Source: Opitutales bacterium
Lineage (GTDB): Bacteria > Verrucomicrobiota > Verrucomicrobiia > Opitutales > T3Sed10-336
Assembly (NCBI GenBank): GCA_007130045.1
Contig: SLTG01000102.1
Location: 1 to 64,000, forward strand
Direction of reading: 5' to 3'
Length of the DNA stretch: 64,000 nucleotides
The position numbers and the translations under genes are program-made. The number at the start of each line of letters is the position of its first letter. The stretch's first letter is position 1. The notes under the pieces are model-generated. The model ran no database searches and was not told where the DNA came from. It saw only the letters and a list, made by a program, of their open reading frames with translations. Positions 3,356-42,530 of this stretch are shown piece after piece.

Positions 3356-3414
3356 TACCCAAGGTACACGGGCAGAATGCCACGCGGCGACACTTTTCGG
3401 GAACATACCGCCCC

Positions 3415-12767: not shown

Positions 12768-12897
12768 CCCGGACAGCGCGGGGATTCGACGGCGCTTCCG
12801 GATCGTCCGGCCGATCAAAAAATTTTTCAGAAAAATTCGAAATTCGATTTGACTCCCGGGAAGAACCATTAAAACTATAAGGGAAGTTAAGAATTTT

Positions 12898-12978
12898 CTC
12901 CCGTTCAACGGGAGTTTTGGGGTAACTAAGAAAGCAGTACGGGCGGGCCGTTTTGGGGTAAACGGCCCGCCTTTTTTT
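12898..12978 (+). promoter_or_regulatory. Structured leader/attenuator-like element, copy 1
   Basis: CTCCCG-ttcaa-CGGGAG hairpin, TTTTGGGGTAACTAAGAAAGCA linker, GGCGGGCCGTTT-tggggt-AAACGGCCCGCC hairpin plus T7. Same layout at 28118-28197. Confidence 0.7.
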
Positions 12979-13036
12979 CACCCTTCCGGCCTGAAAATGG
13001 GTTGCACCGTTTTGTCGGACTTCTTAATGATCAAGG

Positions 13037-14101
13037 GTGGAAAAAGTAACAGACATCAACATCCTGGAAACGCAGCCGCTCCCGGCTCCGATCGATTTTC
13101 TTGCGGAAATCCCCCGCAGTCCGAGCCAGGAAGCGCTGATCGCACGGAGTCGCGAGGAAATTCACGGAATCATATTCGGAGACGATAAACGCTTGCTTGT
13201 CGTGGTCGGTCCGTGCTCGATCCACGACACCGCGGCCGGTCTGAAATATGCCGCGCGGCTGGCAAAGCTGTCGAAAGAAGTCTCGGACCGGCTCCTCCTG
13301 GTCATGCGCGTGTATTTCGAGAAACCCCGCACAACGGTCGGATGGAAAGGATTGATCATGGACCCGAGGCTCGACAATTCGTGCGATATTCCGACCGGTC
13401 TCCGCGAAGCGCGGACGTTTCTGGGAAACGTCCTCGACGAAGGGCTTCCGACAGCCACCGAACTCCTCGACCCGATCACCCCGCAGTACATTGCGGACTT
13501 GATCAGTTGGTCGGCAATCGGCGCGCGAACCACCGAGTCCCAGACCCACCGCCAAATGGCTTCGGGGCTTTCAATGCCGCTGGGCTTTAAGAACGGGACC
13601 GACGGAAACGTCGCCACCGCGATCAATGCCATCAAGGCCGCATCGCAGACGCAGACGTTTCTGGGGATCAACCAGGATGGTCTGGCATCGGCGGTCACGA
13701 CCTGCGGGAACCCGAACTGTCACCTTATCCTCCGCGGCGGGAGCAAGGGCTCGAACTACCAGGAGGCTAGCGTCACCGAAGCCGAGAACGCCCTCAAAAT
13801 GGCGAACCTCACGCCCGCGATCATGATAGATTCCAGTCACGGAAACAGCGCAAAAGATCCCGCGAATCAACCGGCCGTTGTCGCCGACGTGCTCGACCAG
13901 ATCGAACGCGGAACCACGTCGGTTATCGGCCTTATGGTTGAAAGCAATCTGAAAGCGGGCAAACAATCGTTTCCCCGTCCCCGGACGGAACTGGAATACG
14001 GCGTTTCGATCACAGACGGGTGCATCGGTTGGGAGACCACGGAGCAGCTCGTGCGGCGGATCCACCGTTCCCTCGCGTCGCGCTTCGCATTTTCCGCCTG
14101 A
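13037..14101 (+). CDS. aroG: 3-deoxy-7-phosphoheptulonate (DAHP) synthase, class I AroF/G/H type
   Basis: VVVGPCSIHD, MRVYFEKPRTTVGWKGLIMDP, GARTTESQTHR, FKNGTDGN, IMIDSSHGN motifs. Confidence 0.95.
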   Translation: MEKVTDINILETQPLPAPIDFLAEIPRSPSQEALIARSREEIHGIIFGDDKRLLVVVGPCSIHDTAAGLKYAARLAKLSKEVSDRLLLVMRVYFEKPRTTVGWKGLIMDPRLDNSCDIPTGLREARTFLGNVLDEGLPTATELLDPITPQYIADLISWSAIGARTTESQTHRQMASGLSMPLGFKNGTDGNVATAINAIKAASQTQTFLGINQDGLASAVTTCGNPNCHLILRGGSKGSNYQEASVTEAENALKMANLTPAIMIDSSHGNSAKDPANQPAVVADVLDQIERGTTSVIGLMVESNLKAGKQSFPRPRTELEYGVSITDGCIGWETTEQLVRRIHRSLASRFAFSA

Positions 14102-28117: not shown

Positions 28118-28197
28118 CCTCCGCATAGCGGAGGTTTGGGGTAACTAAGAAAGCAAAGGGCGGGCCGTTTAGGGGTAGGCGGCCCGCCCACTTTTTT
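28118..28197 (+). promoter_or_regulatory. Structured leader/attenuator-like element, copy 2
   Basis: CCTCCGC-ata-GCGGAGG hairpin, TTTGGGGTAACTAAGAAAGCA linker, GGGCGGGCCG...aggggt...CGGCCCGCCC hairpin plus T6. Confidence 0.7.
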
Positions 28198-28331: not shown

Positions 28332-30212
28332 ATGGACAAAAGTAACGCTTGGAAAGTGTTTAACCCGCCGGTTGAAGCGGAAAGAATCCTAAAAAACGCA
28401 CCCTCCGTTACGGTATTCAATACCATAGAGGAACTCATCGACGCCGCCTGCGGCGGGGCCGGATCGGATTCAATGGAAGTGGCATACGACGTTCCCGGCA
28501 AGGGACGGATCGTCGAAGCGACCTCGGTGCGGGTGCGAAACGGCGTCGCCGCGAATTATCCGGACCCTTACATGCGCCGGCGCGACCCCGACTGCATGCT
28601 GATCGCCGACGACAATCCTACCAACAAACCCACCTACAAATCGCGCTTTGGCGTTGAATTCGATCCGATGCGCGACGAAACCTTCGAATGGCTTGAGCAA
28701 CAACCGCTTGCCGTTTTCGGATTCTTCTCCGGCCAGACCTATATGGGGATGGACTCCCTCGTCATCGCGCCCGCCAATGCCGGATTCTTCGCCCTCGGGC
28801 TCGCTCTCCTGCAAGGTATTCAGCCCGTCTCGGAGATTCCGAAGGGGTTCAAACCGAAATCAATCATCTATGTCGCTCCGCCGTTCCGCCACACGCATTT
28901 CGAAGGCAAACAGGTGGTCGTCCACAACCGGCGCAGCAAGATACACGAGCTTTTTTCCTACAATCTCTATCCCGGTCCAAGCGCCAAGAAAGGAATCTAC
29001 GGCGTCCTGATCGGACTGGGCGAAAAGGAAGGCTGGGTGACCGCCCATTGTTCGACCGTCCGCGCGATCACTCCGTACGACAACGAGATCACCATCATGC
29101 ACGAAGGGGCCAGCGGTGGCGGCAAAAGCGAGATGCTCGAACAGGCGCACCGCGAGCCCGACGGACGGTTTATCCTTGGTGACAACCTCGTCACCGGAGA
29201 ACGCCGATACATCGAATTTCCCCGCTCCTGCACCCTCTACCCGGTCACCGACGACATGGCACTCTGCCATCCTTCAATCCAGGGCGACAGCGGGAAAATG
29301 TACGTGACGGACGCCGAGGACGCCTGGTTCGTGCGGGTCAACCATATCGACGAGTACGGAACGGACCTCAACCTCGAGCGACTGACCGCTCATCCCTCGA
29401 AGCCGCTACTCTTCCTGAATATCGACGCCGTCCCGAACAGCCGGGCTCTTATCTGGGAACACATCGAGGACGAACCGGGAACCCCGTGCCCGAATCCCCG
29501 GGTGATCATTCCGCGGGAAATCGTTCCGGATGTCGTTACCGGGAGCGTCGGCGTGGACCTTCGCAGCATCGGCGTACGGACGCCGCCCTGCACGAAGGAA
29601 AAACCGACTTACGGAATTATCGGGGTTTTCCACGTCCTGCCGGCCTCCCTCGCATGGTTATGGCGTCTGGTTGCGCCGCGAGGGCACGCCAATCCGAGCA
29701 TTGTGGACACCGAAGGGATGAGCAGCGAAGGCGTGGGGTCCTATTGGCCGTTCGCCACCGGACGCAAAGTGGACCAGGCGAACCTGCTCCTCAAGCAGTT
29801 TGCCACGTACCACAATACACAATACATCCTGGTGCCAAACCAGAATATCGGCGCCTGGAAAGTCGGGTTCATGCCGCAGTGGATCGCGCGCGAGTACCTT
29901 ACCCGGCGCGGAGGGCGCCCCTTCAAGCCCGAACAGGTCCGCCCCGCCCGCTGCCCGCTCCTCGGCTATTCCATTTACCAACTCGAGGTGGAAGGCCATG
30001 CAGTACCGAGATGGTTTCTGCAGGTCAATACCCAGCCCGAGGTCGGCGATGAAGCCTACGACGCCGGAGCGTCCATCCTGAACGACTTCTTCCGTAAGTG
30101 CCTGTCCGAATTCGTCGACGAGCCGGACTTGGACCCTCTCGGAAAAAAGATCGTCCAGTGCTGTCTCGACGGCGGAAACGTAGCCGATTACGAAGCCCTC
30201 ATCGAGCGATAG
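28332..30212 (+). CDS. PEP carboxykinase-like P-loop protein, DUF4914-type
   Basis: HEGASGGGKSEMLEQAHR kinase-type P-loop; about 626 aa with layout remembered from DUF4914/PEPCK-like proteins. Confidence 0.6.
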   Translation: MDKSNAWKVFNPPVEAERILKNAPSVTVFNTIEELIDAACGGAGSDSMEVAYDVPGKGRIVEATSVRVRNGVAANYPDPYMRRRDPDCMLIADDNPTNKPTYKSRFGVEFDPMRDETFEWLEQQPLAVFGFFSGQTYMGMDSLVIAPANAGFFALGLALLQGIQPVSEIPKGFKPKSIIYVAPPFRHTHFEGKQVVVHNRRSKIHELFSYNLYPGPSAKKGIYGVLIGLGEKEGWVTAHCSTVRAITPYDNEITIMHEGASGGGKSEMLEQAHREPDGRFILGDNLVTGERRYIEFPRSCTLYPVTDDMALCHPSIQGDSGKMYVTDAEDAWFVRVNHIDEYGTDLNLERLTAHPSKPLLFLNIDAVPNSRALIWEHIEDEPGTPCPNPRVIIPREIVPDVVTGSVGVDLRSIGVRTPPCTKEKPTYGIIGVFHVLPASLAWLWRLVAPRGHANPSIVDTEGMSSEGVGSYWPFATGRKVDQANLLLKQFATYHNTQYILVPNQNIGAWKVGFMPQWIAREYLTRRGGRPFKPEQVRPARCPLLGYSIYQLEVEGHAVPRWFLQVNTQPEVGDEAYDAGASILNDFFRKCLSEFVDEPDLDPLGKKIVQCCLDGGNVADYEALIER

Positions 30213-42098: not shown

Positions 42099-42530
42099 AG
42101 CAAATGGCCGACCGCGACCTACCCCTAAATCACGGCCGGCCGCTTTTGCTGGGGTAACCGTTATCGACGATGACGACCGACACCTAAGGGGCAAGCGAAA
42201 AATCCACGCGGCGGATGAGTCTTTCGGGGCCGACCATTTCGCGCTTTGGTTGGTAGGGCATAGGGAGTGGCGGGGTTGGGACCGCCACTCCGGCTTGCTA
42301 TTCCTTGCCATGCCATGCCTCGTGAACTCACCAGCCCCCGACCGGCGCCAAGTGGGCGTGTTACGCCCTACGGCGAGCGAGGCAACCAGATCGCGCAATG
42401 CGACTGGTGTCGGTAGTAGGGTCACCAAGGCTCCCATTTGAAGGATCCACGGGCACCTACCAGCAAGCTCAAATCTTAAGATCCTGAATGTCGCGGGCAC
42501 GGTCAATAGAATTCAGCTTGGTGCTGGAAT
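42099..42530. ncRNA. Candidate structured non-coding RNA region
   Basis: No convincing CDS. Consecutive stem-loops at 42099-42150, 42264-42291, 42352-42371, 42385-42408 and 42511-42530. Confidence 0.35.

Follow-up and report, generated by a model that had tools for sequence, protein, structure and literature searches.

A structured RNA with two GGGGUA motifs in Opitutales, probably the product of an autonomous small RNA gene

Two copies of a structured element in the window

The window (the whole 64,000-nt stretch of Opitutales DNA that we analyzed) contains two copies of a short element composed of a hairpin, a single-stranded linker, and an intrinsic terminator. Copy 1 lies upstream of a DAHP synthase gene of the aroG type and copy 2 upstream of a gene for a DUF4914 protein. 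The features of the locus are listed below.

12849–12854 and 12876–12881, plus strand: promoter-like site of copy 1, TTGACT and TATAAG (from the sequence)
12898–12914, plus strand: hairpin 1 of copy 1, CTCCCG...CGGGAG (from the fold)
12915–12936, plus strand: linker of copy 1, the 22-mer TTTTGGGGTAACTAAGAAAGCA (from the sequence)
12918–12926, plus strand: single-stranded motif of copy 1, UGGGGUAAC, the proposed seed (from conservation in diverse members)
12927–12941, plus strand: A-rich part of the copy 1 linker, which differs between families (from comparison of members)
12942–12971 and 12972–12978, plus strand: intrinsic terminator of copy 1, a hairpin with a GGGGUA loop followed by T7 (from sequence and covariation)
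13002–13030, plus strand: promoter-like site of aroG, TTGCAC-N17-TAATGA, 6 nt before the GTG and outside the RNA
13037–14101, plus strand: DAHP synthase, aroG type (Pfam PF00793), a neighbor by conserved gene order
28118–28197, plus strand: RNA copy 2 as a whole (covariance-model score of 101 bits; fold)
28118–28134, plus strand: hairpin of copy 2
28135–28155, plus strand: linker of copy 2, containing GGGGTAAC at 28138–28145
28158–28197, plus strand: terminator of copy 2, with the hairpin at 28158–28189 and the T-run at 28192–28197
28332–30212, plus strand: DUF4914 protein (Pfam PF16260), downstream of copy 2
42100–42160 (near 42119), minus strand: partial, possibly decayed copy (17 bits with the first covariance model; fold z-score of −4.1)

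The sequence-only reading had located both copies with their hairpins, loop, and T-run, and all of these were confirmed from the sequence. In copy 1, the T7 tract ends 58 nt before the GTG start codon of aroG at 13037. Hairpin 1, described there as CTCCCG...CGGGAG, is present with a different loop, since it folds as seven pairs closed by 3 nt. The minimum free energies of copies 1 and 2 correspond to z-scores of −3.5 and −5.6 relative to shuffled sequences, and the terminator fold alone appears in single-sequence folds of both. With up to three mismatches allowed, the only matches to the 22-mer linker in the window are those of the two copies (0 and 1 mismatch), and shuffles yield none.

The DUF4914 gene adjoins the RNA in three other, related loci (L043, L141, and L145), and its product has a P-loop-like stretch. 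A candidate identification of this protein as PEP carboxykinase was dropped, Pfam giving DUF4914 alone; with it fell a possible connection to DAHP synthase by way of PEP.

Distribution and covariation of the RNA family

The window's genome has four exact occurrences of the 18-mer GGGGTAACTAAGAAAGCA, two inside the window and two elsewhere; a fifth, diverged copy, also outside the window, scores 58 bits with our first covariance model. Together with the partial copy in the window, these additional copies show that the element is not the two-copy feature for which it had been taken. Public genome contigs yielded at least 118 stretches with an exact match to GGGGTAACTAAGAAAGCA, nearly all of them from Opitutae. 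Two matches in Flavobacteriales lack the hairpins and were rejected as chance. One contig labeled Parcubacteria ends with an Opitutaceae-type copy (L054, 854–871) and is probably chimeric or misbinned.

The first covariance model, built from 52 of the 18-mer matches, detected the RNA in 82 of the 132 order genomes searched, spanning 19 families. The families without matches to this model (f2, f7, f13, and f25–f28) have mostly small genomes; f2, with genomes of 2–4 Mb, also lacks the RNA and thus constitutes a natural negative control for the target motif considered below. Genomes carry between one and seven copies, some of them in tandem, 180–370 nt apart. On one Opitutaceae contig (L041), copies at 3407, 3836, and 4732 lie within 1.4 kb, each with a TTGAC site. 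A second model was built from 53 diverse members. In a phylum-wide draw, it matched 62 of 63 Opitutales genomes versus none of 325 other Verrucomicrobiota. By these covariance-model searches, the family is restricted to the order Opitutales and is present throughout it. The RNA is easy to find, and in many Opitutales families almost all well-assembled genomes have it.

Both helices are backed by compensatory changes in the alignments. In the diverse set of 53 members, 99.1% of the cells pair and 18 of the 19 base pairs change on both sides, comprising all seven pairs of hairpin 1 and 11 of the 12 pairs of the terminator helix, whose closing U-A is invariant (53/53). Neither shuffled nor slid controls came near the observed covariation. 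This alignment was fitted to the structure; an independent MAFFT alignment of the first set agrees with it, with both-side changes in 15 of 19 pairs. The earlier claim of a conserved structured RNA with compensatory changes thus holds across the order.

The unpaired segments are conserved differently. Directly after hairpin 1, GGGGTA is present in 50 of the 53 diverse members, preceded by T in 49 and followed by A in 50 of 50, which substantiates the proposed conserved single-stranded segment. A second GGGGUA is carried by the terminator loop (AGGGGU), and beyond the invariant U-A there is usually a U-G pair (UU-AGGGGU-AG). The order-wide constants are therefore (U)GGGGUAA, following hairpin 1, and the AGGGGU of the terminator loop; elsewhere the linker is rich in A, and its sequence varies by family. 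An invariant 20-mer, as originally described, exists in the window's family and in Opitutaceae, whereas across the order only GGGGUAA and the AGGGGU loop remain; in the first set, its invariance was also imposed by the 18-mer query. The duplication of GGGGUA points to one of two modes of action, base pairing with UACCCC or binding of a protein. We discarded a minimal NTG-GGG-TAA reading frame following hairpin 1, since the GGAG before it is too near the start and one row reads CCG.

The RNA was rightly described as belonging to no known class. Rfam 15 yielded no family at or above its gathering cutoff at either copy, and the window gave only a tRNA. Neither the literature that we searched nor Rfam 15 contains a description of this RNA family or of any small RNA for Opitutales. 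The best weak Rfam score, for the L20 leader (RF00558), was 21 bits versus a cutoff of 58.7 bits; it is essentially the terminator that aligns, and the likeness consists of a terminator hairpin followed by a U-run.

Promoter and gene neighborhood

In 103 of 118 relatives, a TTGAC element lies at −74 to −69 relative to the linker, as compared with 0 in an adjacent control window. In the relatives, it stands approximately 16 to 17 nt from a TA-type −10 element, which is normal spacing. The upstream promoter-like TTGACT...TATAAG noticed at copy 1 is thereby supported as the RNA's own, although its 21-nt spacer is unusually long. Given the conserved placement of these elements, transcription would be expected to begin immediately before hairpin 1 and to stop at the T-run. 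A promoter-like site of its own and an intrinsic terminator thus flank a short structured unit, as predicted for an autonomous small RNA.

DAHP synthase is the downstream gene in 77 of the 109 loci with enough sequence (families f1, f8, and f14), in line with the position noted at copy 1, and it is the usual downstream gene in Opitutaceae. Behind the RNA terminator, relatives conserve CTTGC...cAAGCTg approximately 40 and 12 nt before the aroG start, with CTTG at −40 to −38 in 58 of 76. Since this promoter-like site ends 6 to 8 nt before the start, the DAHP synthase mRNA is probably leaderless in Opitutales. A divergent gene encoding a GcvT-domain protein upstream is also common to the aroG loci. 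Because this gene is shared too, the association with aroG looks like kept gene order, and the position of the RNA probably reflects inheritance rather than cis-regulation; some cis effect would also fit the conserved nearness. Other families have a convergent gene next to the RNA (FAD-linked oxidase, type II secretion protein F, or a protein that by eye is UvrB-like) or an unrelated one, PhoH-like among others.

Hfq was detected in none of 36 relatives, by a search that does detect it in five known genomes, which argues against an Hfq-dependent small RNA. The window's genome and family lack CsrA, and the conserved loop is AGGGGU rather than GGA, so that the RNA does not resemble the CsrB/RsmZ type in either respect.

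Candidate targets and mode of action

The sequence UUACCCC-AUG is complementary to UGGGGUAA. Among 30 permutations counted in a 1.2-Mb sample of three Opitutales genomes, TACCCC showed the strongest enrichment at starts (17 cases, 3.5-fold over coding sequence), and several of these cases directly precede the start codons of sulfatase-like and other exported proteins. We collected TTACCCCATG from 31 Opitutaceae genomes and examined 50 occurrences, scoring as a real start any open frame of at least 130 codons without a long in-frame extension, an ORF heuristic; the target tests were run on genome samples. Real starts accounted for 26 of the 50 occurrences, compared with 8 of 40 for TTCACCCATG in the same family (p = 0.0017), 11 of 80 for other permuted heptamers in sampled Opitutaceae DNA (p = 3.6e-6), and 4 of 30 for TTACCCCATG in Verrucomicrobiota outside the order (p = 0.0004). 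In family f22, 12 of 30 occurrences lie at real starts (p = 0.02 versus outside the order). A reversed-pattern control for TTACCCCATG proved misleading, as TTCACCCATG, which keeps the ATG, is also far above its reverse; the target claim therefore rests on the real-start fraction relative to the permuted and out-of-order controls. The window's own genome has a single TTACCCCATG versus four of the reversed control, which leaves the target rule unproven for its own family, f1.

According to Pfam, the candidate targets encode alpha-L-fucosidase, GH43, alpha-galactosidase, GH30, an apiosidase-like protein, glucuronoyl-esterase-like proteins, a sialate-type acetylesterase, and two sulfatases; MFS transporters and Gfo/Idh oxidoreductases are also among them. 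Two carbohydrate proteins were found among the eight control genes to which this comparison is limited, and the export bias of the candidates is weak and threshold-dependent (p = 0.007–0.07). Both families carry the site at the glucuronoyl-esterase-like gene. The proteins of this gene are 57% identical, and CTTACCCCATGA is identical between the families, the DNA before the start being otherwise diverged. Predicted seed–target duplexes are strong, in a calculation that ignores accessibility. From this complementarity and enrichment, we infer that the RNA pairs with start sites.

By comparative evidence, the element encodes a new, order-wide, autonomous structured RNA. We interpret it as the gene for an Opitutales small RNA of approximately 85–95 nt that would act in trans by start-codon pairing and have a role in carbon-source use, a reading to which we assign a probability of about 0.6; its trans action, pairing, and physiological role are its inferred parts. 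The RNA would be transcribed as its own promoter-to-terminator unit from one to seven copies in unrelated gene neighborhoods. Its seed, UGGGGUAA(C), would pair with UUACCCCA at or beside the start codon of a target and so block ribosome entry on the mRNA, and the terminator-loop motif may provide a second or redundant contact. Carbohydrate-use and exported proteins are prominent among the candidate targets in Opitutaceae and one other family, which makes a carbon-source (catabolite-type) control that operates without Hfq the likely role. A stronger formulation, that of an Hfq-independent, order-wide master small RNA whose duplicated GGGGUA seed represses polysaccharide-use genes through UUACCCC at the start codon, is tentative, and we would not bet on it at even odds. 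The family brings with it a concrete target rule, UUACCCC at the start codon, as in mRNAs with UUACCCCAUG. Since Opitutaceae are known to degrade polysaccharides and their relatives gave no Hfq, the RNA could provide a way into both carbon-source choice and Hfq-free small RNA action. If the proposal is correct, it would be a carbon-control circuit not previously described in Verrucomicrobiota.

The element had been read originally as a 5′ leader with attenuator or riboswitch geometry. The RNA would then be the 5′ end of the aroG (and DUF4914) mRNA, with binding of a metabolite or protein controlling terminator read-through, and most Opitutaceae, f8, and the window's family do have aroG on the same strand, 60–170 nt downstream. 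A cis-regulator would be expected in a same-strand 5′ UTR in nearly all members. The family instead comprises units closed by a terminator, with the conserved promoter-like site between that terminator and the aroG start, convergent neighbors in other families, and multiple or tandem copies beside unrelated genes; single-sequence folds of the two window copies reveal no alternative pairing that would melt the terminator, and a leader reading frame is absent. We consider this explanation very unlikely. A mobile palindromic element (REP- or MITE-like) or plain terminator repeat devoid of its own function would account for several copies per genome and a strong palindromic terminator. It is hardly credible for an element whose promoter and two separated motifs are kept order-wide while the stems change by compensation, whose copy number is low, and whose positions are stable over a family.

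The remaining alternatives accept a trans-acting RNA. It might titrate a protein through its two GGGGUA motifs, as CsrB does, without pairing to mRNA; one copy of the motif sits in a hairpin loop whose closing pairs show a preference and the other beside a hairpin, and the tandem copies of the RNA fit such a function. We regard this as distinctly unlikely, given that the CsrA motif GGA is not the conserved part, CsrA itself is missing in the window's genome and family, no candidate protein is known, and the sequence complementary to GGGGUA is overrepresented at start codons. The match between GGGGUAA and UUACCCC might also be coincidental, the small RNA being real with other targets, and TTACCCC before ATG being a DNA operator or another start-site feature. 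The lack of the exact target rule in the window's own genome favors such a coincidence, as does the basis of the target evidence in samples and a heuristic. The complementarity extends over 8 nt of the most conserved unpaired stretch of the RNA, however, and the enrichment appears in two families that have the RNA but not in genomes that lack it, so that we judge coincidence somewhat unlikely.

Small RNAs with comparable features are known elsewhere. The actinobacterial 6C RNA, an Rfam family, has two hairpins with C-runs in both loops. The Opitutales RNA likewise is small, has two hairpins, and repeats a homopolymeric C/G motif in unpaired parts, but this motif is GGGGUA, with one copy outside a loop, and there is no Rfam match. 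CsrB/RsmY-type RNAs titrate proteins through GGA motifs; they share with the Opitutales RNA a short G-rich motif repeated in loop and single strand, and differ in the GGA motif, which the Opitutales RNA lacks in a genome devoid of CsrA. In Bacteroides thetaiotaomicron, a polysaccharide degrader without Hfq, the intergenic small RNA GibS is tied to carbon source and pairs at the start-codon region of metabolic genes, with bench-tested targets (PMC7366714). Intergenic location, absence of Hfq, start-codon pairing (proposed for the Opitutales RNA), and a tie to carbon source are common to both. GibS differs in its largely unstructured 5′ part, its genus-wide distribution, its longer 5′ seed, and its lack of GGGGUA motifs; no sequence relation between the two is seen, and the Opitutales targets are predicted from sequence. 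By analogy, the Opitutales RNA would work like a start-codon-pairing small RNA such as GibS, while being a member of no family tested.

The minus-strand element at 42100–42160 has a terminator-like hairpin with a UUAGGGGUAG loop. In place of hairpin 1 and GGGGUAAC, it carries GUUACCCC, the reverse complement of the seed, and it holds one of only four TTAGGGGTAG in the genome. It may be a decayed copy or a sponge-like partner of the RNA.
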